A stretch of DNA of 64,000 nt from an uncultured Methanobrevibacter sp. (GTDB lineage Archaea > Methanobacteriota > Methanobacteria > Methanobacteriales > Methanobacteriaceae): the NCBI GenBank assembly GCA_900314635.1, contig OMVY01000008.1, positions 1 to 64,000 on the forward strand, written 5' to 3'. This document shows, piece by piece, positions 39,279-63,188 of the stretch (position 1 is its first letter; each line of letters opens with the position of its first letter). Below the pieces are notes generated by a model, which saw nothing but the letters and a program-made list of their open reading frames with translations, was not told where the DNA came from and did no database searches. The position numbers and the translations under genes are program-made.

Positions 39279-41810
39279 ATGAAAACTGAAAAACAGGAGA
39301 TTTTTGAAACATACTGTGAATACATTTTTGTAAAAGGTTGGTCTAAAGAAAAGGCCTTTAAAAAAATCAGTCGTTTTTATAATGTGTTTATATCTACTTT
39401 GGAAAAATGGTATGAAGAGGAGAACTGGGAGCAGAAAATAACCGATGAGGATTGGCAAGCAAGAGCCATTGCCAAAAATGAAGAGAGACTAAAAAGGAAA
39501 GAAAAAGTAAGGATGCGCCGTAAAAAAGAGCAACAGGCAATAAAAGAGGAAAAAGCTAAAAAAGAAGAGGTTATGAAAAAACTTTTAAATCGTGGAAAAC
39601 GGTTTAAAAGATATAGGTGTCCTAATTGTAGTCTGCCTATAGAAGAATGTACTTGCGGCTATTTCGACGATTTAACTAGACATATAAATGACAAGCCTGA
39701 AATGAATAATGATGCAGAATCCAATCTTTCATCTAAAGTTCCTAAAAATGGTAAAAAATCCAGTTCTAGTGCAGATGTTTCTGTTAGTGTTAAGAATTCT
39801 AGTTCTGATGCAGTTTCTGTTGGTGGTAAAAAATCTAGGTCTAAACCAAAAGTTTCTAAAAGTATTAAAAAATCCAAAAAAGAAAAAGATATTCTTAAAA
39901 AAACTTCAAAGACATCCATACAATTATCTGCCAATCAGGAAAAAATCTTATCTGAAATTTCAGATTCAATCAAAAAGGGATATAAATTCATTGTCTTGGA
40001 AGCAAATGAAGGAAATTCAGACATTGCTGTTAAATTAGCAAATAATTTCGATAGCTCCCTAATTTTAACCTCTAATGAAAAGTCTCAAATGAGATACAAT
40101 AAGAAGTATGAACTGGGAAAAAATTCCAAAATCCATCTATCAAATCATAAAAGTTTCTTTGATGAAGGAAATAACATTGAAGAAGGAGATTTGCTAGTTT
40201 TCGACGGCGCCCATAGGCTGGATGAAAATATTGCGGATTTGTTTTCATATCCGATCTACCTGGACGATTACAGAGATTTGATAAATAATTTCAAATGCAG
40301 ATTTAAAGATTTGCCTGAAGAAGAGTATACCACTTGGCTTGATTTTTTTAAGCATTTGCATTTGGATAATGATAAGGTAAAAAGAGTGGCAGCATGTATT
40401 AAACAAAATCCCAAGAACTGGATTTGTTCATATGTTTCTAAAAATGAGATATTATCATTTTATCCATTGAATATTGCAGATCTTGCAAAAAAGTATTGGT
40501 TTAGCAAGGGTAAAGTTTGCGTTTTAATTTCTTCGAGAATCCTTGATTCAAAAATGTTTGCAAAGGGATTAGGCCTCGACATTTCCCATACGAAATTCAT
40601 TCAATCTGATGAGACAGTTTATTCCGGAAGTAATAAGATTTATGCTAGAAAAACAGCCAGCATCAATAATCGTAAGCTGCTGATTCAGCGCATAGAGAAG
40701 ATACTGGAAAATCATAAAAACGAAAAGGGTCTTATTCTCACAGGTAAACGAAACTACAAGGGTATTTTTAGACGGTTTAATGATCAAAGGATTATTATTC
40801 TTGGCGACTATGACTACCATAAAAAAATTAAAAAATTTATCGAAGTTTCTGATTCTGTCATTGTTACCGATTCCTTGGAGGATGAATTTGAATTTCCGTA
40901 TGAACAATGTAAATTCCAGATTATCATGAATGCGCATGTGCACAAATTCGATAAACGTTTTGAAATTAAAGAAAATGAATATGGGTTGTACTCATACAAG
41001 AAAAATATGGATTTAGCGGATTCATTGAAAAAACTAGCCGTATCTGAATCCGACAGCTGTATCACCTATGTTCTGGATGATGATATCTTAACGGCAGTAG
41101 CATATGACATTACTCATAACAAGATTCTTCCAGAATATGCCATTGATTCGATAGTTGATTTGGATATGAATGACTGTGGTTTCGTTTCAAAAAATATTAA
41201 AAAACAATTCGGCGTTTATTATAAGTTTGATTATTATAAGGATAGAAAATCTGAAAATAAGGATATATGGGCATATAAAGATTATAATAAAGAAAGTCCA
41301 GACATATATTTGAAAGAATTTGATTATTTCACAACTGAATTAATGAAAGCAATTTCCGAGCTGTCAAATGATATTATTGATTCAAGCATTAATAAGCTGG
41401 CTCTTGTGGCTGTACCTTCTTCTACAATAAAACGAAATAAATCTTCAACAATGAAGGAAAGTATTAATGTGATTGAAAGTTGGCAGGAAGAAGGCAAGAC
41501 ACAATCCGATTTCAATTGCAAAAAAGAAATCATCAATTGCGGAGATTTATTGAAAAGAGTCACTGATGTTACTACAGCCCATTTATCTAAAAATTTATCC
41601 AAATCACGTCCAAGTTATGTCGAGCACACAAATTCAATTGAGTGTGAGAAAAAAGATATCCTTGAAAAGGAAGATGTGGCTTTCATCATATTGGATGACA
41701 TTTCCACAAGGGGAACAATAATGAATGCCTGTGAAGACATATTAATCAAAAATGGTGCAAAAAAAGAGAACATTTTCAAATTTGCAATATACAAAACACA
41801 GAAGGAGTAA
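39279..41810 (+). CDS. inactivated XPD/DinG-like helicase fused to phosphoribosyltransferase
   Basis: The 843-residue protein begins with an HTH-like and coiled-coil region, a zinc ribbon (CPNCSLPIEECTCG, about residue 114) and a Ser/Lys-rich linker. From about 215 to 610 it follows the XPD/DinG helicase layout, but motifs are altered. The Walker A region is LEANEGNSDIA without G-K-T, the DEAH box is FDGAHRLDE, motif V is VTDSLEDEFEF, and motif VI lacks its arginines. The last 140 residues form a phosphoribosyltransferase with an intact PRPP loop, IILDDISTRGT, at about 803-813. The helicase part is probably a scaffold. GAGGGTGAT fixes the start. A DprA gene follows after 2 bases. Confidence 0.75.
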   Translation: MKTEKQEIFETYCEYIFVKGWSKEKAFKKISRFYNVFISTLEKWYEEENWEQKITDEDWQARAIAKNEERLKRKEKVRMRRKKEQQAIKEEKAKKEEVMKKLLNRGKRFKRYRCPNCSLPIEECTCGYFDDLTRHINDKPEMNNDAESNLSSKVPKNGKKSSSSADVSVSVKNSSSDAVSVGGKKSRSKPKVSKSIKKSKKEKDILKKTSKTSIQLSANQEKILSEISDSIKKGYKFIVLEANEGNSDIAVKLANNFDSSLILTSNEKSQMRYNKKYELGKNSKIHLSNHKSFFDEGNNIEEGDLLVFDGAHRLDENIADLFSYPIYLDDYRDLINNFKCRFKDLPEEEYTTWLDFFKHLHLDNDKVKRVAACIKQNPKNWICSYVSKNEILSFYPLNIADLAKKYWFSKGKVCVLISSRILDSKMFAKGLGLDISHTKFIQSDETVYSGSNKIYARKTASINNRKLLIQRIEKILENHKNEKGLILTGKRNYKGIFRRFNDQRIIILGDYDYHKKIKKFIEVSDSVIVTDSLEDEFEFPYEQCKFQIIMNAHVHKFDKRFEIKENEYGLYSYKKNMDLADSLKKLAVSESDSCITYVLDDDILTAVAYDITHNKILPEYAIDSIVDLDMNDCGFVSKNIKKQFGVYYKFDYYKDRKSENKDIWAYKDYNKESPDIYLKEFDYFTTELMKAISELSNDIIDSSINKLALVAVPSSTIKRNKSSTMKESINVIESWQEEGKTQSDFNCKKEIINCGDLLKRVTDVTTAHLSKNLSKSRPSYVEHTNSIECEKKDILEKEDVAFIILDDISTRGTIMNACEDILIKNGAKKENIFKFAIYKTQKE

Positions 41811-41812
41811 CA

Positions 41813-42730
41813 ATGATCAAACTTAAGGAAATTTTATTTTTAAAAAATCTCTATCGGGTTGGAAAGTCCAAGATATATACAACATATTGGAAAATGCTTG
41901 AAGACTGTGATGCATTATATGATTTGGCGGATGTTGTTGAAAAGAATTTTGATTTTTCATCTGATGAAATTAAGAAGGCTATTGACAATGCAGAAAGGAT
42001 GTATGATGATATTGTTAATTTAGAAATGGAGATTATAACAGTATTTGATGAGAATTATCCTGAAAAATTGAATGTGATGGGAAATAAAAGGCCTCTGATA
42101 TTATATGCCAGAGGAAATCTGGATGCATTAACCAAGCCCAATATTGGAATCATAGGAACAAGAAAACCGTCACTATTAAGCCAAGAATTTGAACAAAACA
42201 TGGTGAGAAATATTGTCAATTCAACTGACAGAGTTGTTGTAAGTGGATTAGCATTGGGATGTGACAAGATAGCTCATCAAACAACTGTTGATGAGAACAA
42301 AATCACAGTTGCAGTTCTTCCGGGTGATGTTTTTAAAATCAAGCCTCCTTCACACAAAAAACTGGCTGAAGATATAATTAATGCTGGAGGCTGTCTTATT
42401 AGTGAATATGAACCTGGAGTGAAAGTTCAAAAAGGAAATTATATAGATAGGGACAAGGTTGTAGCAGCATTATCAGATGCCCTTTTTGTTGTTGAATGCG
42501 GTATAAACAGCGGAACAATGCATACTGTAGACTTTGCTAAAGAATACGAAAGGCCAATATATTCATACCTTCCTGATGAAAGGCCTGAAGGATCATATGA
42601 TGGAAATGAATACATTTTGAAAAACTATGAGGATGCCTTGAAAGTGGAAGACATTGAAGAATTCTTAGAATATTTAAATGCTTTGAAAATCAAGAAAAGC
42701 ACTAAATCAGTTCAACTAACATTAATCTAG
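41813..42730 (+). CDS. dprA: DprA/Smf-family protein
   Basis: The 305-residue protein has an N-terminal helical region and a Rossmann-like DprA domain with GIIGTRKPSLLS, VVSGLALGCDKIAHQ, VAVLPGDVFKI and DALFVVECGINSGTMHTV. Classical DprA binds single-stranded DNA and loads RecA in transformation. In archaeal islands such homologues appear in defence clusters. Only 2 bases separate it from the helicase/phosphoribosyltransferase gene, with GGAG in that gene's last codons, so translation is coupled. A second phosphoribosyltransferase gene lies 87 bases downstream. Confidence 0.9.
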   Translation: MIKLKEILFLKNLYRVGKSKIYTTYWKMLEDCDALYDLADVVEKNFDFSSDEIKKAIDNAERMYDDIVNLEMEIITVFDENYPEKLNVMGNKRPLILYARGNLDALTKPNIGIIGTRKPSLLSQEFEQNMVRNIVNSTDRVVVSGLALGCDKIAHQTTVDENKITVAVLPGDVFKIKPPSHKKLAEDIINAGGCLISEYEPGVKVQKGNYIDRDKVVAALSDALFVVECGINSGTMHTVDFAKEYERPIYSYLPDERPEGSYDGNEYILKNYEDALKVEDIEEFLEYLNALKIKKSTKSVQLTLI

Positions 42731-42817
42731 AAGAAAGAATTTCAGTATGTTTTATTCTCAATTTAAACGTTTATAGCATTAATTGTTTTTCAAAATGTTT
42801 TATTAATCATCATAGAT

Positions 42818-43513
42818 TTGAGTAATGATTGGTCAATCAATGAGGATATTTTTGCTGTTTTAAAAAAGAAATTTCGGAGTCAGGATATGGTAAATTTAGA
42901 GAAAACACGATGGCATGTTTATTATTTGTTTGATTATGTCAAACCAAAATTATATGATAAATACGATGATGAAAGTATCAATCGTTCTAAAGAAATATGG
43001 AAATTCAAAAATTTTGATGTCGATGCAAATGAGTATTTTAAAAATGAAATAATAAATGGAATTGATAGAATTTTAACTAATATCATAAAAGATGACGTTA
43101 AATTTTTAGGACTTTCTTATGTGCCTCCTTCTAAAGTGGGTAAACCATCTCCTATGAGAAATGTGATTTTTGAAATTATTGAATCACATCGAAAAGGAGA
43201 AATTAAAATAGGCCCTATCGATGAATTAAAAATTTATAATTACAGTAATCTGTTAAAAAGAGTATCAGATGTTCCAACATCTCATTTAGAAAAGAAAAGA
43301 GCAAGCTATCCTGAACATTTGGAGTCTATTGAATGTGAAGGAAGGTTAGTGTCATCAGCAAGAAATATGGACATTATAATTTTATTAGATGACGTTACAA
43401 GCAGTGGTGCTTCTATGAATGCTTGTAAAAATATATTGGCAGAGAACAAGATTAATAAAAGAGATATAATTAAATTTGCAATATTTCAAAGTGTGTGGGA
43501 TAGAGAAGAATAA
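42818..43513 (+). CDS. stand-alone phosphoribosyltransferase
   Basis: The 231-residue protein has a C-terminal phosphoribosyltransferase domain paralogous to that of the 843-residue protein. They share NLLKRVSDVPTSHL versus DLLKRVTDVTTAHL, SYPEHLESIEC versus SYVEHTNSIEC, and the PRPP loop ILLDDVTSSGASMNAC versus ILDDISTRGTIMNAC. Its own N-terminal 90 residues are unrecognised. The annotated start is TTG without a clear ribosome binding site; ATG 42887 is an alternative. With DprA it probably forms one functional unit, ligand or nucleotide unknown. Confidence 0.8.
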   Translation: MSNDWSINEDIFAVLKKKFRSQDMVNLEKTRWHVYYLFDYVKPKLYDKYDDESINRSKEIWKFKNFDVDANEYFKNEIINGIDRILTNIIKDDVKFLGLSYVPPSKVGKPSPMRNVIFEIIESHRKGEIKIGPIDELKIYNYSNLLKRVSDVPTSHLEKKRASYPEHLESIECEGRLVSSARNMDIIILLDDVTSSGASMNACKNILAENKINKRDIIKFAIFQSVWDREE

Positions 43514-43584
43514 TTTAAAGAATCATTGTTTTAAAAGTTAAATTTTGAATTAATCAAGACTAAAATTTATTTTTGGTGATTGTT

Positions 43585-44502
43585 ATGGCGATTTATAATA
43601 TTGAAGATGAGAATTTAACTCCAATCAGGCAAGTTAAATTTAAAAATGAAAGAGAATTGCAAAGATTAACCGAGAAAAACCTGGAAGAGCTATTTGGTTT
43701 GAAATTCGTTGCTACTGAATTTCCAGTTGACAATTTAAGAATAGACACATTGGCTTTCAACGAAGAAACCAAATCCTTTGTAATTATTGAATACAAGAAT
43801 GTCGAGAAATATAGTGTTATAGACCAGGGTTACAGTTATTTATCATTATTGCTAAATAACAAAGCCGAATTTGTTCTAAAATACAATCTTGTCTTCAACA
43901 CCACTTTATCCAAGAATGAATTTGATTTCTCTCAAACCAGCGTGATATTTATTTCTCCTAGCTTCACTACATATCAATTAAGGTCTGTTGAGTTTTCTGA
44001 TATCGCTTTCGAGTTATGGAAGGTAGTTAAATATTCCAATGGAACTGTATTATATGATAAGGTAAACAACACTAACACTACTGCTTCAATAAAACAAATC
44101 GCCGGTTCTGATAATAAAAGGAATAAAGTGAATAAGGAAATCAGGAAATATACTGAAGAAGACACATTGAATGGAAAATCAGATGATATAAAATCATTGT
44201 ATTATGAATTAAAAGATTATATCTTATCCAAATATGGTGATATTGAAGTAACCCATTGGAAATATTATTTCGTTTTCAAGGTCAATAACAAGATTGTGGT
44301 CTCAGCATCTGTCTTAGCAAAGTCTATTAAGACTTGGATTAATTTAAAGGAATCAGAAATTCACGATCCTGACAATAGAATTAGAAATGTTTCCAATGTT
44401 GGCCATCATGGTGTTGGAGATTATCAATTTGTAATAAATTCAGAAGATGATTTTTATTACTTTGAAAAATTATTCAAACAATCTTATGATGAAAAGATTT
44501 AA
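43585..44502 (+). CDS. PD-(D/E)XK-like nuclease with DUF5655
   Basis: The 305-residue protein has an N-terminal nuclease-like fold with LRIDTLAFNEETKSFVIIEY ending in E-Y-K, matching the D-(x)n-E-x-K motif of the restriction-endonuclease superfamily. The C-terminal 110 residues (from about DDIKSLYYELKDYILSKYGD) match the DUF5655 domain, with HHGVGDYQFVI near the end. Such proteins are widespread in archaea and thought to process DNA. ATG 43585 follows GGTGATT. It lies 70 bases after the phosphoribosyltransferase and may belong to that cluster. Confidence 0.82.
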   Translation: MAIYNIEDENLTPIRQVKFKNERELQRLTEKNLEELFGLKFVATEFPVDNLRIDTLAFNEETKSFVIIEYKNVEKYSVIDQGYSYLSLLLNNKAEFVLKYNLVFNTTLSKNEFDFSQTSVIFISPSFTTYQLRSVEFSDIAFELWKVVKYSNGTVLYDKVNNTNTTASIKQIAGSDNKRNKVNKEIRKYTEEDTLNGKSDDIKSLYYELKDYILSKYGDIEVTHWKYYFVFKVNNKIVVSASVLAKSIKTWINLKESEIHDPDNRIRNVSNVGHHGVGDYQFVINSEDDFYYFEKLFKQSYDEKI

Positions 44503-44610
44503 GCAAGGATGTTGAACCTTTGGTTATTATGTAAAATTATCCAACTTTAATGTTACTTTCCAATGGAAAAAATTTTGAGTGTTATTTACTATTTTATGAC
44601 AAAAAAAAGG

Positions 44611-44641
44611 ATTTATTTAAAAAGCACTCAAATTTGTGACA
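44611..44641. repeat. 31-bp direct repeat, left copy (IS-end-like)
   Basis: ATTTATTTAAAAAGCACTCA followed by AATTTGTGACA matches 48498-48528 at 29 of 31 positions in the same orientation. A GACA also precedes each copy. The pair brackets the TIR and ImmA/DUF4411 genes. Read on the minus strand it starts TGTCACAAATTTGAGTG, the look of an insertion-sequence end; that is inference. Confidence 0.75.
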
Positions 44642-44723
44642 TCCCTATTTTAGATAAACTTTTAAATTTTATATTTCATACAATTATAAAAAGAAAAATT
44701 TTTTTTTAAAAGGATGAAAAATT

Positions 44724-45728
44724 ATGAATGATAATTTACAATTAAATGCTTTAACTATTGGAACATATATTTTTCAAAATGAAAATAATCAAATTAGCTG
44801 GAGAGTAATACTCGAGGCTTTTGGTTTTGAACACTTACTAGAAACTAATGTAAGATTAATTCGAAGCCAGAATTTTGGTGATGATGATTATTTAGATAAC
44901 ATAGTTAAAATTATTTATGATGCTATGAAAGAAAATTATGAGAATTCATTAAAAATGGTAAAATATATATTAATCAATTACACCGATTCCTCTGAAAATG
45001 AAATAGAAAAAATTATTAATAGTGATTCGGAAATTTTCAATATTGATTCTAGTGAAGAATTATTTGAAGATATTTCTAGTCCTGGCAATGAAGAAGAAAT
45101 TTTTGAAAAAGCTTTTATAAGTTATTCTACCGAGAACAAATCTATTGCCCATACAATTAAAGAAATTTTAGAAGACTTTGGAATTAATGGTTTTTTAGCT
45201 CATGAAGATATTGAAATGTCACAAGAGTGGCAAGATACATTAATGAAAGAATTAGGAGAAGTTAATTTAGTAGTTGCTATATTGAGTGAAGATTTTAACA
45301 AATCATTTTTTTGTATTCAGGAAGTCGGAATTGCCTTGTATAATAACATCACTATAATTCCTATATCTATTGATGGGACAAAACCAGAGGGGTTCTTAAA
45401 AAAAATTCAAAGCAAAAAAGTTAATTTAGATAAGGACAGTATTTCTATAAATTTAATTAAAGCATCGCCAGAATTTATGGTTAATAATGTTATTAACACT
45501 TTAGAATTTCGACCCACTTTTGATGATAGTGCAAGAGTTCTAAATTATTTAATTCCTTTTTTTAAAAATTTTAATGTTAATCAAGTTGAAAATTTTGTTA
45601 AAGCTGCAATTAAAAATGATCAAATTTATAAGGCTCGTAATTGTAAAGTTCCATTAAATAAGTTCTATAATATAAATAAGGATAAGATACCTTTAAATTT
45701 ATTAGAAGAATTTAAAAATATTCTATAA
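44724..45728 (+). CDS. TIR-domain protein
   Basis: The 334-residue protein has an N-terminal helical domain (1-120), a TIR domain at about residues 128-245 (KAFISYSTENKSIAHTIKEI, NGFLAHEDIEMSQEWQDTL, LVVAILSEDFNKSFFCIQE), and a C-terminal domain with NYLIPFFKNFNVNQVENFVK. Bacterial and archaeal TIR proteins often degrade NAD+ or make signalling nucleotides in antiphage defence. In the W-Q-D helix the position three after Trp169, often glutamate in such TIRs, is Thr172, so activity needs checking. AAAGGATG supports the start. It lies alone between 31-bp repeats. Confidence 0.85.
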   Translation: MNDNLQLNALTIGTYIFQNENNQISWRVILEAFGFEHLLETNVRLIRSQNFGDDDYLDNIVKIIYDAMKENYENSLKMVKYILINYTDSSENEIEKIINSDSEIFNIDSSEELFEDISSPGNEEEIFEKAFISYSTENKSIAHTIKEILEDFGINGFLAHEDIEMSQEWQDTLMKELGEVNLVVAILSEDFNKSFFCIQEVGIALYNNITIIPISIDGTKPEGFLKKIQSKKVNLDKDSISINLIKASPEFMVNNVINTLEFRPTFDDSARVLNYLIPFFKNFNVNQVENFVKAAIKNDQIYKARNCKVPLNKFYNINKDKIPLNLLEEFKNIL

Positions 45729-46102
45729 TAGTTATCGTTTAATTTTTTTTAAATTCATTAAATTTTCATATATGCTTCAAAAAGGGTGTTTAATTTTTTT
45801 AAGTAATTTCAATAATTATCTGACACAACCAATATTAGTTATATCTCTGTAATTGACTATTGCACTCTGTTAGACTGGTTACATGGCTAATAATTCTGCG
45901 ATTTAGTGTTGAAGAGTTGGTCATTTAATTTGAATTGTATGTTAATAATCAGTTAACTATTCATTTTTTTAATAATTTTAAATTAAACCTTATTATTTTT
46001 ATAATAGTATTACATATTAATATATAATAATAAATAAATCAAATTAATTGAATGTTTGTAAAACAATAAATGCTTTTCAAAAAAATTTAAGGAGGGAAAG
46101 AT
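45729..46102. other. intergenic gap before the ImmA gene
   Basis: These 374 bases contain a likely TATA region (AATATATAATAATAA, about 46018-46032) and the ribosome binding site AAGGAGGG for the next gene. The segment around 45830-45910 is less AT-rich than its surroundings but encodes nothing I can read. Confidence 0.4.
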
Positions 46103-47254
46103 ATGGCTCTGGCAAGAATCAATAAAGATATGATGTACTGGGCAAGAAAATATGCGGGCTATGTTAATGGTTATGAAAATGAATTGCCAAAAGACATTAA
46201 AGAGAAATATGAAGCTTGGGAGTCTGGTGAGAAATTCCCTACATGGATTCAATTAAGAAATGTCAGTAAAAAATACAAAGTTCCTACAGCATTTTTCTTT
46301 ATGAAAAACCCTCCAAAATATGAGTTGATTCCCACTTTGGTTAATTATAGGAAATTAGATAGGGACAGTATTTATGAAAATAATTCTCCATATTTAATAG
46401 ACAATATTCACTCTTCTGAAAATCGCAGGAGCATATTCATTGAGCTATCTGAAGATATGGATGAAGGTATTCCATCTTTTGAAAGATTTGAAGGCAAAAC
46501 AAGCAAGCATAATCTATCTTCATTTATCCGTGAAAAATTGGATGTGTCTTTAGATACTCAGAAAAGCTGGCTAAAAAAAGATAATAGGAAGGATAAAGGA
46601 CATTACAACTTTTTAAATAACTGGAAAGAAGTAATCACTGAAAAAATGGGAGTATTAATATTCGAAACATATGATGTGGATATTGAAGAGATGAGAGGAT
46701 TATGCATTTATCATGATGTTGTTCCCATTATTCTATTAAATGGAAAAGACAGTGTTAATGGCAGAATATTCTCCTTATTCCATGAATTGACTCATTTATT
46801 ATTAGGTGAAAGTGCGATTTGCGGAGATGATTTGGAAAGGGATATTGAAGTATTTTGCAATGCTGTTTCAGGAGAATTCCTAGTTCCAGAGAATGATTTG
46901 ATTGAAAATTTAAATAACATGCATGCTAATGATTTATTAAAAGATATATCTGATTTGTATGGTGTTAGCGAACATGTTGTTCTAAGACGTTTACTGGATT
47001 TAAATAAAATCACTAAAAAGGATTATGATTTGAAAACGGATTATGAGTTTATTCCAAGTTCCAATAAAACAAAAGGAAATAGTGGAAATTATTATCGCAA
47101 TATGATCAAATATAATGGAAGGCCATTCTATTCTCTTGTTCTTTCCGCATATGAACTGGGCATTATTAACGGGTCCGATTTTTCAAAATTCACAGGATTG
47201 AAAGTGAATCAGGCCCCAAAGATTGGAGAGATGTTATATGGAGGGCAACAATGA
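46103..47254 (+). CDS. HTH and ImmA/IrrE-type metallopeptidase
   Basis: The 383-residue protein begins with an XRE-like region (MYWARKYAGYVNGYENELPK, KYEAWESGEKFPTWIQLRNV) and then an ImmA/IrrE peptidase domain with the zinc motif HELTHLLLG at about residues 226-234 and a downstream acidic ligand region, EVFCNAVSGEFLVPE. A C-terminal part (NYYRNMIKYNGRPFYSLVLS) is also typical of this family. Such proteins cleave a repressor or act as antitoxins. The next gene overlaps it by 4 bases (ATGA), so the two form a unit. Confidence 0.92.
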   Translation: MALARINKDMMYWARKYAGYVNGYENELPKDIKEKYEAWESGEKFPTWIQLRNVSKKYKVPTAFFFMKNPPKYELIPTLVNYRKLDRDSIYENNSPYLIDNIHSSENRRSIFIELSEDMDEGIPSFERFEGKTSKHNLSSFIREKLDVSLDTQKSWLKKDNRKDKGHYNFLNNWKEVITEKMGVLIFETYDVDIEEMRGLCIYHDVVPIILLNGKDSVNGRIFSLFHELTHLLLGESAICGDDLERDIEVFCNAVSGEFLVPENDLIENLNNMHANDLLKDISDLYGVSEHVVLRRLLDLNKITKKDYDLKTDYEFIPSSNKTKGNSGNYYRNMIKYNGRPFYSLVLSAYELGIINGSDFSKFTGLKVNQAPKIGEMLYGGQQ

Positions 47255-47718
47255 GAAAATTCGTCATTGATACCTCTTCATTAATTGATTTGGAAAAATA
47301 TTATCCGTATAATGTTTTTCCTTCACTTTGGGAATTCCTATTTGAAATGTTTGATGAAGGAAAATTATTTTCAGTTAATGAAGCTTATGAAGAACTGAAA
47401 GATTCGCAGGAAGTGTGGAAAGATTATAAAAAATGTTTTAGAGATCTAACTGATGAAGAAACGGAATATTTGTCTGAAATCATGACTTTGGATAAATTTG
47501 AATCATTTAGATACAGAGGTTTTAAAAAGACAAATGGAGGGCCTTGGGCGGATCCTTACTTGGTTGCTTGCGGTATTGCGGATGATAGTATTACTGTTGT
47601 TTCTCAAGAAAGTTCTAGAAAACATCCTCATTCAATTATTCCATACGTTTGCGGAGAATACAATGTTCCTTGCATCAAGTTTTTAGATTTTTTAAAACAA
47701 AATGATTTCAAGTTGTGA
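47251..47718 (+). CDS. DUF4411 PIN-like protein, probable toxin
   Basis: The 155-residue protein starts FVIDTSSLIDLEKYYP with the first PIN acidic residue and continues through NGGPWADPYLVACGIADDS to a strand, ITVVSQESSRK, with the arrangement of DUF4411 PIN-like proteins. These usually follow an HTH-ImmA gene, as here, and are thought to be ribonuclease toxins. GGAGGG within the preceding gene and the ATGA overlap point to coupled translation. It completes a type II toxin-antitoxin-like pair. Confidence 0.88.
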   Translation: MRKFVIDTSSLIDLEKYYPYNVFPSLWEFLFEMFDEGKLFSVNEAYEELKDSQEVWKDYKKCFRDLTDEETEYLSEIMTLDKFESFRYRGFKKTNGGPWADPYLVACGIADDSITVVSQESSRKHPHSIIPYVCGEYNVPCIKFLDFLKQNDFKL

Positions 47719-49747: not shown

Positions 49748-52513
49748 TCAGACCCCATAAATTTGGAATCCTCCCCATTCAAAAATATTAAATTTTTCTT
49801 TTAGTTTTAGTTCAGATATTCTTAATCGTTCTGGATAATCTACATTTTGTTGATAAAAAATTCTAAATAATTCTTTAGTTGCAGAATCACTAATAGGCCA
49901 TAAGGATGCGATAATATATTTTGTACCATTGATATGTAAATATTTAACAAACCCCTCTACTTCATCACTATTTCCAATTGAAACTTTTCCAGTTTCACAT
50001 GCAGATAAAACAATTAATTCAGTATTTAAATCAAGTTTTTCTATATCTTCAATATATAAATATTCATCGGATAGTTTTAATCCAGATAATAATGGATTTT
50101 CATTATTAAAATTAGCATGACCTGCAAAATGGATAATTTGTTTATCATCTATTAAATCTAAAATTTTATTTTTATCTGCATCACCCTTAAGAATAGGGGT
50201 TGTTTCTAAAATATTTGATATGAAAATTGCTTCTTTTTCAGATTCAATTAAATCTTCGGTAGGATTTCCAATAACTAAATAATTCTTTGTTTCTTGAGAA
50301 AAATTGTTTTGAATATATTTTATACTAGATCCACTTTGTACAATTGTAATAATATACTTATCCAAAAGATAATCTTTATCTTTTAAGCAAATGAATGGGA
50401 TATTATGTAATAGTTTATAAGGAATAATTATTAACTCTTTATTAGATATATAATCTTCAATTTGTCTAATGAGGATATTATATAAAATTTTTAATATTTT
50501 TTCAAATTCATTGATATAAAAAGATATTTTATCTTCTTGATTCTCTTCACAGGAATTATAAATTATATTCTGCAATGAAAAAGTTAATGAATTTATAAAA
50601 TTATTTTTTAAAGATATTTTTTTCATTATTATTTCTTTATTTTCAATTAAAAAAATTAGTAATACATCATCTGTGTAATAATATTCAATTACTGTTTTAT
50701 CTTTCAAGTCAAATTCTTTAAAATTAATAATTTGGTTGTAGTAATAATCATAAAACTCAGGAAATTCATTTTTAATTTTTAAAATGTAATATTCTTGTAT
50801 TTTTTTCAGTTTGATAAATTTTTCGTAATTTTTACTATATTCATAGTTATAATCATCTAAGTTTTTTAATTTAAATCTAATATCAGATATTTTATTATTG
50901 ATATTGTCTAATTCCCTTTTCATTTCTAAATTTATTGGTTTTTTTAATTCTTTTAATTGTTTTTTTGAGATCTTATCTAAAAAAATTCTATTTTTTGACA
51001 GTTCAATATATCTTAATGTTTCTTCTACTTTATTTAATTCAGAGCATGATATAATCATTAATTCATATAGCTTGTTAATTTTTTCAAAAAAATCCTTCCT
51101 AATTCTTGGATTCCTAATAGAATTTCTCATAAGTTCAACAATTAAAATACCTTTTTTTAAATAGGTATAAGATTTTTCAAAATTTTTTGAATCAAAAAAT
51201 AACTTTCCTAATTCGGAGTAATTATAGATTATCATTTCTTTATTGTTAATTTTTTCAAAATAAGTTAATGAGTGGAGGAGTATATTTTCAATTTCAGTAT
51301 AATTTTCATTAAGTGAGTTTTCTAGTAATGATAAATTTTTCTTAACTATTCCTATTAAATATAATATTTTAGGATAATGAATTTCTTTACTTTGAAATGG
51401 AATTTCTTCAAAAAATTTTTTTGATTTAATTAAAAGATCTAATGATTTTAGAAGCTCTGTTTTATTTTTATATTTTTCATCACTATTTTCGAATATTAAA
51501 AATCTTATATATGCTTCTTTGTAATATGTTTGATTTTCATAATATTTATCTTTAAAATTATTATTTTCCCTATAATTTTTTAAAAGATTTATACATTTTG
51601 TAAAATATTTTAATTTATCGTATTTATTGCTTGTTTTTGCTTTAATTCTCAATATTTCTGCTTCAAGGATAATCGATTCATGGTATGCAAACTCTTCTTC
51701 AGATGATCCATTTTTAATATTTTTTATTTGTTTTTCAATTTCCTCTAATTTGTCAGATGATATAATTCCTAATTCTATTAACTTTAATTCATTTGTTAAA
51801 TAGGATATCGAATTTGGACCTCCTATTTTATTAATTAATTTTTGAATTGTATCATAATTATCAATTTCAAAACCGTATGATTCATAGGTTTGTAATTCAG
51901 AAATTGCATATAATTGATTTTTCAAGGTTACTTCATAATATTTATCATTTTCTTTGTAATATTCTCTTGCTTTTTCAGATAATTTTATAGATTTAATACA
52001 ATTTGTTTTTGAGTTAACTTTATTTACAGCTAATTGTAATCTAACTCTTGCTTCATTCATTATAGTTAAATAGGTTAATTGTTCATCAGTTTCATTATTT
52101 TTTCTAACATATTCATACAATCCCACAGCTTCTTTAAGATGTTCTATTGGTTTGTCGAAGTGAGATAATTCACATAAAATGTTTGCCTCTTCTTGCATTG
52201 CAACTAATGGATTAATAGGGTAAGAATTATTATTGATTTTAGGGTATATCTCTTGAATTTCTTTAGCACATTTTTGGGCTTCTATCAAATGATATAATGA
52301 TTCTTGAACTTCGCAATAACCCCATTCATGAATTTTTTGTCTTGATACACATTCTAGAAAGCATAATCTAATATAATTTAAAGTATTTTTTTCATATTTT
52401 AGTTTTATAGAAATAATTTCATCTAATGTATTTTCTAATTCATAAAGATCTTTTGGATTATTTACTAGTTCTTCTAGCTCATCTATTTCATGTGGAAAAG
52501 TTATTTCATTCAT
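49748..52513 (-). CDS. TPR-CHAT caspase-like protease
   Basis: The 921-residue protein has a long helical N-terminal part with TPR-like repeats, for example IIYNYSELGKLFFDSKNFEK, and a C-terminal CHAT domain. The catalytic pair is visible: His799 in IIHFAGHANF and Cys839 in VLSACETGK; DEVEGFVKYLHINGTKYIIA and SLWPISDSATKELF are conserved CHAT segments. CHAT proteases cleave partners such as gasdermins or are controlled by CRISPR complexes; here the partner is unknown. It is followed at 52659-57683 by a set of PH-like small proteins. The start has only a weak ribosome binding site. Confidence 0.92.
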   Translation of the reverse strand: MNEITFPHEIDELEELVNNPKDLYELENTLDEIISIKLKYEKNTLNYIRLCFLECVSRQKIHEWGYCEVQESLYHLIEAQKCAKEIQEIYPKINNNSYPINPLVAMQEEANILCELSHFDKPIEHLKEAVGLYEYVRKNNETDEQLTYLTIMNEARVRLQLAVNKVNSKTNCIKSIKLSEKAREYYKENDKYYEVTLKNQLYAISELQTYESYGFEIDNYDTIQKLINKIGGPNSISYLTNELKLIELGIISSDKLEEIEKQIKNIKNGSSEEEFAYHESIILEAEILRIKAKTSNKYDKLKYFTKCINLLKNYRENNNFKDKYYENQTYYKEAYIRFLIFENSDEKYKNKTELLKSLDLLIKSKKFFEEIPFQSKEIHYPKILYLIGIVKKNLSLLENSLNENYTEIENILLHSLTYFEKINNKEMIIYNYSELGKLFFDSKNFEKSYTYLKKGILIVELMRNSIRNPRIRKDFFEKINKLYELMIISCSELNKVEETLRYIELSKNRIFLDKISKKQLKELKKPINLEMKRELDNINNKISDIRFKLKNLDDYNYEYSKNYEKFIKLKKIQEYYILKIKNEFPEFYDYYYNQIINFKEFDLKDKTVIEYYYTDDVLLIFLIENKEIIMKKISLKNNFINSLTFSLQNIIYNSCEENQEDKISFYINEFEKILKILYNILIRQIEDYISNKELIIIPYKLLHNIPFICLKDKDYLLDKYIITIVQSGSSIKYIQNNFSQETKNYLVIGNPTEDLIESEKEAIFISNILETTPILKGDADKNKILDLIDDKQIIHFAGHANFNNENPLLSGLKLSDEYLYIEDIEKLDLNTELIVLSACETGKVSIGNSDEVEGFVKYLHINGTKYIIASLWPISDSATKELFRIFYQQNVDYPERLRISELKLKEKFNIFEWGGFQIYGV

Positions 52514-59607: not shown

Positions 59608-61515
59608 TCACCTACTATTGTTATGTTTGTTGTTAAAAATATTCTTTTTGTTAATTATTGAATCTGCAATAATATTTTTATTTATAAATTTTATTCGAGT
59701 ATTAGTTGGAGGATAATTTGTAAAAGCTATATCTAATATGTCATCAATCACATTAAAAATAGGTTTTTCAGCAATTTCTTGATTATCATTTTCCAGATAG
59801 TCTTTTTTAAGATTTTCAAATAATTTTTCATTAATTAAAAGTTTTTTATCTTTAATTTCATTATTAATACTTGATATTCCTTTTTGATCATCATTGGGAT
59901 TATACAATTTAGTTATATCTTCTATTGATATTTCTGTTTCACAAACTTCATTTATAGCAATATGTAATTCTTTAGGAGAATAGTTATCCATTTCAAAATC
60001 ATATTCCCAAATATGTATCCATTCTTCGAGAAAAGAATTATTAATATTTTTAGTTTCATCAAAATAATCAATTAAATCCTCTTTGATTTGATTTGTGGTT
60101 TCAATTTCAAATTCTTGATTAATTTTTTCGAAAAATTTAGAGTAAAACAATTCTAGAGATTTTTTATATTCGGTTATTTTCCAATTATTTCTATAAAAAA
60201 ACAATTTCTCAGAATCAAATGTAATTCCTTCTTTTAATTTATCTAAAATACCATTTTCATTATCTCCAATGAAGAAGGGGATTGTTTGAAATGTTTCTAA
60301 AAAGTAATTTATTAATTGAAAATAATTGTTTATGAAAACATTTGAATATTTTTTATTTTCATTTTTTAGATTAATTTTTGAACTCATTAATTTGCTTATT
60401 CCTTCTATATTGATTATGTCTACCATACAATTTTCTAATTTGTATCCACAGAAATCAAATAATTTGGGCATAATTATTTCTTCTGTTTTTCCTTCGACAA
60501 TTATTAATACACGAGGATGATAATCTAGATCTAATTTATTTGATAAGTAAAATAATTTATGCTTATTTAAATCAAATTCATAGTTTTTATTTAAAGGATT
60601 TAAATAATTTTTGTTTCGCATTCCTCTTGTTGTTCTACCTTTTTCATTGGCAGGTACATTTTCTAAAATATACTCTCCATCATATTGGTCACATTCATCT
60701 ATATCGAAAATATCCCTATCTAAATAATCTTCAATACATACTTTTAGCATTAAAACCCATTGTAAATATTCAATTCCTAATCTAATTGAACCTTCAAATT
60801 TATTTTTCTTTTCCCAATTGACATGTTTGAATATTTGAATCATATCCTCATTACCTAAATAGGATGAAAGTTCTCTACATAGTTTGACATAACAATTTGC
60901 TAAATTGGTTATATTAAAATCATTAATTTCAAATAATTCTTCTAACTTAAATGTTTTAAGTTGGTTATACCAAAGTTTCTTATCAGATTTTATATTGATA
61001 AATCTTTTATTAGTTCTCCCATAAGGAGAATATATTTGTATGCTTATTAAGAAATCTGTAAGCTTATCTTCTAAGTTAAAATTCAAATTTTCTTTTAAAT
61101 CTTCGTAATTCTTTTTTAAATAATTGAAATTTTCTTTAATATATTTTAGGTTATGAATTTGAAATGTTGAGTAGTAACTGCTTATTTTATATCCTTTTCC
61201 TCTTTCAGTATAGTTTTCGAAATTTTCAAAAAGTTCTTTTGAAGGAAGGTATATATTTCCATTTTTAAGAGCATCATTTAATTCGGGGTTTCCATAGATA
61301 TCAAATATATATTTATGGTATCTGTTATTATAATATTCATTTTTGGTTCGGAAAACAGGATAAAAAAATCCTTCTTTTTCATATAATTCTAATTCTCCTA
61401 TAGAAATATTTATTCCTCTTTTCTTACAGAATTTGACAAATTCTTCTATATCCATAGGAGGATTTTGTAAGTATAATTGATTTTCAATATAATATTTAAG
61501 AAATTGTTCGTTCAT
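59608..61515 (-). CDS. TOPRIM-domain protein with MerR-like N-terminus
   Basis: The 635-residue protein begins with a MerR-like helix-turn-helix (ISIGELELYEKEGFFYPVFR, residues 37-56), a long helical middle, and a TOPRIM domain. That domain has VLIIVEGKTEE at 336-346, VDIINIEGI at 365-373 and FFIGDNENG at 414-422. It resembles the nuclease half of OLD proteins but has no ABC ATPase half. The D-x-D of TOPRIM is DNE here. The gap to the upstream HEPN gene is 11 bases (with GGTGTGAC) and to the peptide gene 4 bases. It may cut DNA or RNA as the effector of the operon; inference. Confidence 0.78.
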   Translation of the reverse strand: MNEQFLKYYIENQLYLQNPPMDIEEFVKFCKKRGINISIGELELYEKEGFFYPVFRTKNEYYNNRYHKYIFDIYGNPELNDALKNGNIYLPSKELFENFENYTERGKGYKISSYYSTFQIHNLKYIKENFNYLKKNYEDLKENLNFNLEDKLTDFLISIQIYSPYGRTNKRFINIKSDKKLWYNQLKTFKLEELFEINDFNITNLANCYVKLCRELSSYLGNEDMIQIFKHVNWEKKNKFEGSIRLGIEYLQWVLMLKVCIEDYLDRDIFDIDECDQYDGEYILENVPANEKGRTTRGMRNKNYLNPLNKNYEFDLNKHKLFYLSNKLDLDYHPRVLIIVEGKTEEIIMPKLFDFCGYKLENCMVDIINIEGISKLMSSKINLKNENKKYSNVFINNYFQLINYFLETFQTIPFFIGDNENGILDKLKEGITFDSEKLFFYRNNWKITEYKKSLELFYSKFFEKINQEFEIETTNQIKEDLIDYFDETKNINNSFLEEWIHIWEYDFEMDNYSPKELHIAINEVCETEISIEDITKLYNPNDDQKGISSINNEIKDKKLLINEKLFENLKKDYLENDNQEIAEKPIFNVIDDILDIAFTNYPPTNTRIKFINKNIIADSIINKKNIFNNKHNNSR

Positions 61516-61526
61516 GTCACACCTGT

Positions 61527-63188
61527 CTAATTTAAAAATTGTTTAATATAATCTTTTGAGTTAAAATTGTTATCATCAAATTCATTTGGATTTATTAAAC
61601 AATCCGCATTTAACATTCTTAATAAAAATATTTCAATAGTATATTCCATAAATTCTTGCTGTCTAAAGATAGTATTTTTGAAATCTTTCATTGGTAAATT
61701 TTTCAAAATGAATTCATTTATTTCATCTAATAATCTTTTTCCTCTTCCATTATATTCCTTTTTAAGCTTCTTTTCATAAACATTTTCAATAATTTTTCGA
61801 GAATCAATTTCAAGAACAGTTAGATTTCCACTATGCACTATTCTGTTCCGATAAAAAACTAAGTTTTCGACTACATAAGTCTTTTTATAATTTTTAATTA
61901 TATTCCCAACTTTTTTCTTATTTTTTCCGATTGTGTCACTAGAGATAAATGTAAGAGTTATCTCATCAAAGAATTCATCAACTTCGGGTAAGAATATTTT
62001 TAATATTTTTGAAGTGTCTAAATTTAATTCATTAAATCTATTAATAAGCTCTCTTCTTAAATTTTTCTTTTGATATTTAGTATTAATTTGCATATTGGTT
62101 TGATTAAGTTTTTTATTTGTTAAACATTCGAAAAATGCAGAACATAATAGTGTTTTCACTTCAACATATTTTTCATTTTTTATCATAATGCAATAATGTA
62201 TTAATAAATTTATATCGACAAAATTTTCTTTTAAAATAATATATTGAGTATATGATGAATTAATAAAATTAAATAAATTATTTGGGAAATTTTTAATCAA
62301 TGAAATCCCATTAGTTTTTGTATTATTAAATTTATTAATAACAATTTTTTTATAGATTCCATTTCTAATAATTTTTATTCTCAGGTTATGTGTTTTTGCT
62401 TCAAATAAATTCAATAAAATTTCCAAATCTTTCATAGTTTCATCATATTCTTCTAAATCTTTTTCTTCAGTTTGAAAATAAAAAAATGAATTAACATTTT
62501 TAAACTGTTTTAAGGATTCTTCAGTAGATTCATTGTACTCTTTGATATAATCTTTATTTTTTTTATTTTTCTCACAAATTACATAACCCCTATAATCTTT
62601 AAAAAAATCACAATTATTGTATTTTTCACATAATTTTTTGTGCAATTCCTTAAATTCATATTCTTCAGTATTTTTTGATTTTAAAAATATGTTTTTCAAT
62701 TTCTCATCATCAAATTTTTGTAAAATGTTTTGTGATATTTCAACATTTTCTATTAATGTCCATACATTAAAATTTTTATTATATGCCTTTTTATTTTTAG
62801 TTTCCAAAATTATTTTTACACCAAATCCTTTAAATTTATAATCATTTTCACTAAAATTAATATAAACATTATTAATTATTATATCATAATCAGTATTCTC
62901 AAATTTCACGGTATACTCTTCAAAATTATCTATATATGTGCTATTTGTTTTACCATCTTCTAAAATTTCTTCTTTAATTTTTTTCATAAAAAAGAATTCA
63001 TCTTCAGGATTTTCAAAACTAATTATTATATTTTCATTTATTATAACATGAATATTTCTGATTATTGTTTCTTTTTGTGAAATATTAGAAATGATTGTAG
63101 CTCCTGAAGATTCTAAAATTATATCTCTATTTTCATCGTATTGAAAATTTAAATTAGGGATATTTGGGATTTTAGTTTCAATTTTCAT
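61527..63188 (-). CDS. HEPN-domain protein (ApeA-like C-terminus)
   Basis: The 553-residue protein has a beta-rich N-terminal half (FQYDENRDIILESSGATIIS, FGVKIILETKNKKAYNKNF) and a helical C-terminal half with RNRIVHSG at residues 447-454, an R-x4-H HEPN motif. ApeA-type HEPN proteins are antiviral RNases that act on tRNA. The N-terminal part is not recognised in detail. It opens the five-gene operon. A TATA-like TTTAAATATT lies about 40-45 bases before the ATG on the minus strand, and I see no strong ribosome binding site, so the leader is short. Confidence 0.75.
   Translation of the reverse strand: MKIETKIPNIPNLNFQYDENRDIILESSGATIISNISQKETIIRNIHVIINENIIISFENPEDEFFFMKKIKEEILEDGKTNSTYIDNFEEYTVKFENTDYDIIINNVYINFSENDYKFKGFGVKIILETKNKKAYNKNFNVWTLIENVEISQNILQKFDDEKLKNIFLKSKNTEEYEFKELHKKLCEKYNNCDFFKDYRGYVICEKNKKNKDYIKEYNESTEESLKQFKNVNSFFYFQTEEKDLEEYDETMKDLEILLNLFEAKTHNLRIKIIRNGIYKKIVINKFNNTKTNGISLIKNFPNNLFNFINSSYTQYIILKENFVDINLLIHYCIMIKNEKYVEVKTLLCSAFFECLTNKKLNQTNMQINTKYQKKNLRRELINRFNELNLDTSKILKIFLPEVDEFFDEITLTFISSDTIGKNKKKVGNIIKNYKKTYVVENLVFYRNRIVHSGNLTVLEIDSRKIIENVYEKKLKKEYNGRGKRLLDEINEFILKNLPMKDFKNTIFRQQEFMEYTIEIFLLRMLNADCLINPNEFDDNNFNSKDYIKQFLN

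Follow-up and report, generated by a model that had tools for sequence, protein, structure and literature searches.

An apparently disarmed XPD/DinG-like helicase fused to a phosphoribosyltransferase in a probable toxin–antitoxin locus of a methanogenic archaeon

What use is a helicase that appears to have lost its ATPase motifs, and why is it fused to a phosphoribosyltransferase (PRTase)? The question is raised by three adjacent genes in the window, the 64,000-nucleotide stretch of DNA of an uncultured Methanobrevibacter sp. that was analysed here. A preliminary description, made from the sequence alone, took the genes for a nucleotide-chemistry conflict system with a dead helicase as DNA sensor or scaffold. 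The three open reading frames that it listed were all found where it had placed them (Table 1). With a probability of roughly 0.6, we read the locus as a toxin–antitoxin module of the ShosTA/RqlHI class, most likely serving abortive antiviral defence, in which DprA would restrain the PRTase and the pseudohelicase would dock or sense.

Table 1. Features of the module, in window coordinates
Feature	Position	Strand	Remark
Gene 1: zinc ribbon, XPD/DinG pseudohelicase and C-terminal PRTase, 843 aa	39279..41810	+	
N-terminal extension of gene 1, residues 1-105, basic	39279..39593	+	missing in both orthologs
Zinc ribbon CPNCSLPIEECTCGY, gene 1 residues 114-128	39618..39662	+	common to resident helicases
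Pseudohelicase domain, gene 1 residues 215-630	39921..41168	+	
Walker A site of gene 1	39999..40022	+	EANEGNSD replacing EAGTGTGKSA, two-residue deletion
Motif II of gene 1	40203..40214	+	DGAH replacing DEAH
Fused ShosT-type PRTase, gene 1 residues 636-843	41184..41807	+	
PRPP loop IILDDISTRGTI, gene 1 residues 803-814	41685..41720	+	intact
Gene 2: DprA, ShosA-like, probable antitoxin	41813..42730	+	
Gene 3: ShosT-like stand-alone PRTase	42887..43513	+	frame open from TTG 42818

The start of gene 1 is preceded by a ribosome-site-like GGGTGAT. Only 2 nt separate its stop codon from the start of gene 2, and an AAGGAG lies within its final codons, so that the two genes are probably co-translated. 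For gene 3, the ATG, which has GGAG upstream and lies 156 nt behind the end of gene 2, appears a more likely start than the TTG.

Searches of Pfam with gene 1 and with its N-terminus returned no domain above the Pfam cut-offs, and searches of PDB sequences with single-sequence and three-sequence queries gave nothing useful. The homology of the pseudohelicase therefore rests on direct genome matches, a wider alignment and a fold search. Residues ~255-640 align with XPD/DinG-like helicases of the order, with E values of about 1e-28 for resident helicases of the Methanobacteriaceae. Some match to gene 1 is present in 150 of the 151 genomes of the order, mostly to XPD/DinG-like helicases at E values of 1e-30 to 1e-20, and the PADLOC typeIV_DinG profile scores 7.6e-7. 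The AF2 model of residues 215-843 (629 residues; pLDDT 88.8, pTM 0.75) finds CasDinG, DinG and XPD as its best PDB matches in Foldseek, with E values between 2.7e-14 and 1e-11. The overall XPD/DinG layout that had been proposed is thus borne out, and similarity to SF2 helicases is present in both sequence and fold. Resident helicases carry a zinc ribbon (CPNCGMLKxNCxC) similar to that of gene 1 (CPNC-x6-C-x-C-GY), which therefore probably arrived together with the helicase. Membership in a type IV CRISPR system was considered and rejected: the DinG profile match stands alone, with no convincing match to csf or Cas genes among the ten surrounding proteins scanned, a difference from the type IV-A CRISPR DinG (Csf4). 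Intact DinG/XPD-like helicase genes are present in tandem about 50 kb from the module (L029:4036-8947; G000:C11, about 92-97 kb); they encode proteins of 1059 and 555 aa, the longer one with a 370-residue N-terminal extension.

When the motifs are compared with those of active relatives, the XPD/DinG domain presents itself as a pseudoenzyme. In motif I, EAGTGTGKS has become EANEGN--S, and the Gly-Lys pair is gone. The glutamate of the DEAH motif is lost and its aspartate kept; in motif III, SATIL has turned into SSRIL, with retention of Ile-Leu; in motif VI, DSLKKLAV stands for QxYGRGMR, with loss of G-R-G-M-R. One or two of the motif VI arginines are retained in the two orthologs of the protein, according to the alignment. 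Motif V is partly retained, and motif Ia is mostly lost relative to 31 active relatives. The preliminary description had stated that every ATPase motif was altered, with no G-K-T, DGAH for DEAH and no motif VI arginines. The particulars are seen in the window protein, and motifs I, II, III and VI are indeed changed, but the general statement goes too far, since the motif II aspartate, the motif III Ile-Leu and parts of motif V remain. The region between motifs Ia and II, which houses the FeS cluster, has a median length of 116 aa in active relatives and measures 37, 37 and 36 aa in the three dead proteins; it contains 5-7 cysteines in the former and none in the latter. Other segment lengths are little changed.

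The losses fall preferentially on the motifs. Among 152 columns that are at least 90% conserved across the 31 active relatives, the window protein keeps 61; the same 45 are kept in all three dead proteins, and 72 in none of them. Loss is more frequent in motif columns than in the remaining conserved ones (odds ratio 0.29, p = 0.006, with the FeS region excluded and the motif limits set by hand). A usable Walker A elsewhere in the helicase domain would have spoken against a dead enzyme. A pattern search of gene 1 for such a substitute returned only GGK in the linker (178), GLILTGK at 484, which aligns to a strand of the helicase core and not to the P-loop, and GKT at 739, inside the PRTase; a hidden Walker A was therefore rejected. 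Judged by its motifs, the XPD-derived domain can probably no longer hydrolyse ATP or unwind DNA.

Eroded catalytic motifs would also be expected if the helicase part were simply degenerating, without a role. Full-length orthologs of gene 1 argue against this. Among the 151 genomes of the order they are found only in G105 (59% identity) and G011 (45%; Methanobrevibacter isolate RUG012, L030). A first scan of GTDB contigs for gene 1 orthologs, with short peptide patterns, found none, and a second recovered the G011 protein; as both scans relied on such patterns, there may be orthologs beyond those found. Searches of plasmids with the fused protein and its PRTase, and of viral contigs, gave no match, and phages searched with gene 1 yielded weak matches to ordinary helicases only. 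Both orthologs, which come from other genera, share the motif and FeS losses of the window protein, which excludes sequencing error and chance. The three dead helicase domains are united in a single clade (SH-aLRT 100) at the end of a long branch, so that the disarming probably happened once. A dprA gene follows in all three loci, and the three DprA proteins also form one clade (99/97), as expected for co-inheritance.

The dead domain is under purifying selection. Between window and G105, NG86 estimates are dN 0.29 and dS 1.43 for the helicase domain (dN/dS about 0.2), 0.20 and 1.15 for the fused PRTase, 0.14 and 1.03 for DprA, and 0.59 and 0.67 for the N-terminal stretch of zinc ribbon and linker; the ratios are rough because dS is high. 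On these values, the dead helicase domain is maintained nearly as strongly as the PRTase. With the frame open in three genera, the deletions common by descent and the fold predicted with confidence, pseudogene decay is extremely improbable, and we reject it.

The partners of the pseudohelicase indicate what kind of module this is. Gene 2 matches Pfam DprA (2.9e-53) and PADLOC ShosA (4.9e-63), and more weakly PsyrA (1.1e-29). PADLOC ShosT matches gene 3 at 9.6e-16, the PRTases of the two orthologs at 2e-11 and 2.9e-16, and the fused PRTase at 5.4e-13 when it is searched alone; when the whole of gene 1 is scanned, this match does not appear. The PsyrT profile matches neither gene 1 nor its PRTase. 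The PRPP loops of the attached and the separate PRTase were rightly described as intact (ILDDISTRGT and LLDDVTSSGA). Both enzymes retain the DD-x4-G loop and 19 columns that are invariant in ten archaeal relatives, themselves included. In pairwise profile comparison, bacterial ShosT is only remotely similar to the window PRTases, and their placement in the family rests on the PADLOC profile, which also recognizes two further pairings of DprA with a PRTase, in a P2-like phage and on a Segatella plasmid. The gene 3 PRTase clusters with the fused PRTases (97/96); its branch is long and the identity only 35%. Its counterpart is missing from both orthologous loci, and gene 3 is possibly a partial duplication of gene 1. 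The suspected association of DprA with PRTases is thus confirmed, and the conflict system can be specified as one of the ShosTA/PsyrTA (RqlHI) kind, in keeping with its defence-type setting.

The surroundings of the module contain several genes of defence type, recognized by PADLOC and Pfam. Directly downstream (43573-47718), genes for a PDC-S18/DUF5655 protein (PADLOC 2.4e-110) and an AbiJ_NTD5–TIR protein (Pfam TIR_2 1.9e-15) are found, and an ImmA/IrrE-type (RmrA-like) gene overlaps a DUF4411 gene, possibly as a toxin–antitoxin pair. A CHAT-domain protein of 921 aa (49748-52513; Pfam 2.6e-41) and a 635-aa protein with an OLD-like TOPRIM (1.5e-6, with a weak GajA match) may also serve defence. 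The latter gene adjoins one for a 553-aa protein that has no PADLOC match, and the two together occupy 59608-63188.

A trio of helicase-type ATPase, zinc-bearing PRT-domain protein and DprA that act jointly on ssDNA is also known from competence, as ComFA, ComFC and DprA. ComFC combines a zinc finger with a PRT domain, binds ssDNA and meets DprA (PMC9005727), and NCBIfam comF matches the present proteins weakly. It could therefore be asked whether the locus is a DNA-handling operon, for competence or repair, instead of a toxin–antitoxin module. This is very unlikely. The nearest profiles are ShosA and ShosT, not ComF; the module occurs sporadically, in a setting of defence genes, and lacks an active helicase. 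In the competence system, by contrast, the proteins are separate, the ATPase is active and the role is DNA uptake.

The gene-neighbourhood survey that the preliminary description had called for was carried out with the profile of the fused PRTase, which matches 14 of 152 genomes of the phylum. A DprA gene adjoins the PRTase in every complete locus that was read; the PRTase of G097 is truncated by a contig end. The N-terminal partner varies. It is a dead XPD in the window, G105 and G011, and UvrD in G080 (intact) and G085 (truncated by the contig end); in G091, G094, G098, G045, G036 and G067 it is short, coiled or missing. In G080, a 1407-aa fusion of UvrD, topoisomerase-type zinc finger and PRTase is followed by DprA (L024:3768-7991), and the UvrD motifs are intact (AGAGTGKT, DEYQDT, HKSKG, ALTR); it represents another architecture in which an archaeal helicase is joined to a PRTase. 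UvrD-type genes are also found near the PRTase in G091, G094, G067 and G098, the last assigned through its likeness to the G094 gene. From the fusions and these neighbours it follows that the PRTase has been linked to helicases repeatedly. Downstream of DprA, G011 encodes a TPR/cold-shock-domain protein and then an intact DinG, and G091 a protein of the same TPR type and then UvrD. These TPR proteins, with their C-terminal cold-shock/OB-like domain (L023:7565-8776, L025:3574-4755), lie between the DprA and helicase genes and may be a swappable third component that goes with differing helicases. In G045, the PRTase/DprA pair is located directly downstream of PglZ and BrxL, in or beside a BREX-type locus (L124:2083-8867).

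These loci bear on two other explanations of the dead domain. It could be a structural scaffold only, which senses nothing and serves to keep PRTase and DprA together as an inhibited oligomer or to place partner proteins, the DinG of G011 supplying helicase activity in trans. The intact DinG in G011 and the loss of motif Ia and the FeS part are compatible with this, and the helicase domain of RqlH helps to restrain its PRTase (PMC4670107). We nevertheless regard a pure scaffold as unlikely, since neither the window nor G105 has an intact helicase next to the module, and several sister PRTases manage without such a scaffold.

Alternatively, the domain could be an integrated decoy in a prokaryote: the host XPD/DinG copied, disarmed and wired to a DprA-checked PRTase. 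It would mimic a resident helicase that viruses attack or recruit, and binding of a viral protein would trigger the PRTase with no need for DNA sensing. In a broader form, viral interference with the helicase, or with the DNA structure that it recognizes, would lead to growth arrest. The domain does descend from the family of the resident helicases and apparently brought the zinc ribbon along, and only the enzymatic parts have been lost while the fold is under selection. Yet we know of no viral protein that targets a resident XPD/DinG helicase, and the sister loci with intact UvrD do not look like decoys. A decoy thus seems improbable.

The toxin–antitoxin reading builds on the ShosA and ShosT matches, the coupled gene order, the loss of motifs with a kept fold, the selection on the dead domain, the DprA clade and the repeated link of the PRTase to helicases in sister loci. 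According to this model, DprA would bind the gene 1 PRTase, the effector, and restrain it; the gene 3 PRTase would probably be controlled in the same way. The XPD-derived domain, probably a targeting or sensing module, would tether the PRTase to DNA, or to a complex of DNA and protein, and help to keep it quiet. Infection or damage would alter this substrate (ssDNA, SSB-coated DNA or recombination intermediates), and the hold of DprA would be lost. The freed PRTase would then consume PRPP in modifying nucleotides or nucleic acid, which would arrest growth; we know of no chemistry established for this PRTase family.

The mechanism is drawn by analogy from RqlHI and ShosTA, and several precedents agree with parts of the model. 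In RqlHI, toxicity maps to an aspartate of the PRTase and also needs protein parts outside it, helicase-dead mutants of RqlH retain their toxicity, and RqlI, which is DprA-like, binds through the PRTase domain, without which it does not co-purify with RqlH (PMC4670107). A pair of DprA and PRTase gives E. coli protection against T7 and lambda (PMC9122126), and ShosTA may be triggered by DNA–protein intermediates that arise when phages replicate or recombine (PMC10732053). Counted against the model are the small number of known members, three, and the remote similarity of the PRTases to tested bacterial ShosT. DNA binding by the pseudohelicase is its weakest link and is uncertain, since the domain lacks both motif Ia and the FeS part and its charge is near neutral (pI 6.5). 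The PriA of Deinococcus radiodurans, which has also lost its catalytic motifs while the protein was retained, shows that DNA binding can survive in a pseudohelicase (PMC4504706), although PriA is a replication restart protein without a toxin. The role as DNA sensor or scaffold that had been suggested for the dead helicase would fit the evidence.

Both the pairing of DprA with a PRTase and the fusion of a PRTase to a helicase have been described before (PMC9122126, PMC4670107, PMC5512222). The preliminary description knew of no account of the decayed helicase fusion, and we found no XPD/DinG pseudohelicase–PRTase protein in the open-access literature that was searched, a scope outside which most subscription papers and preprints fall; helicase–PRTase fusion as such is not new, as RqlH, with its RecQ-type helicase, demonstrates (PMC4670107). 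With ShosTA, the module shares adjacent genes for a ShosA-type DprA and a ShosT-type PRTase with PRPP loop, and the defence setting. It differs by the fusion to the XPD pseudohelicase and by the second PRTase, whereas the tested bacterial ShosTA have no helicase domain; gene 3 alone would resemble them in this respect. With RqlHI/PsyrTA, it shares a helicase with a PRTase toxin at its C-terminus, encoded beside a DprA-like antitoxin, but RqlH is an active RecQ-type helicase, and the domain here is of XPD/DinG type, without working motifs and without a PsyrT match. From XPD/DinG helicases, including type IV-A CasDinG, gene 1 has the fold and descent of residues 215-630 and, as in the resident archaeal helicase, an N-terminal zinc ribbon; it differs in lacking Walker A, DEAH, the FeS cysteines and the motif VI arginine finger, and in being fused to a PRTase. 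The UvrD–PRTase/DprA loci of sister archaea (L024, L006) use the same PRTase and DprA families with a helicase of SF1, which in L024 has all sought motifs intact.

The conflict systems of methanogenic archaea thereby gain an XPD-family pseudohelicase among their known components. In the RqlH literature, helicase activity could not be cleanly separated from a structural role in PRTase control. Evolution appears to have run this separation: three related proteins kept the helicase fold and dropped the ATPase and FeS parts, and a sister protein has an intact UvrD. Together they offer a natural comparison by which to judge whether the helicase of a ShosTA/PsyrTA-type system acts by unwinding, by sensing or only by positioning.
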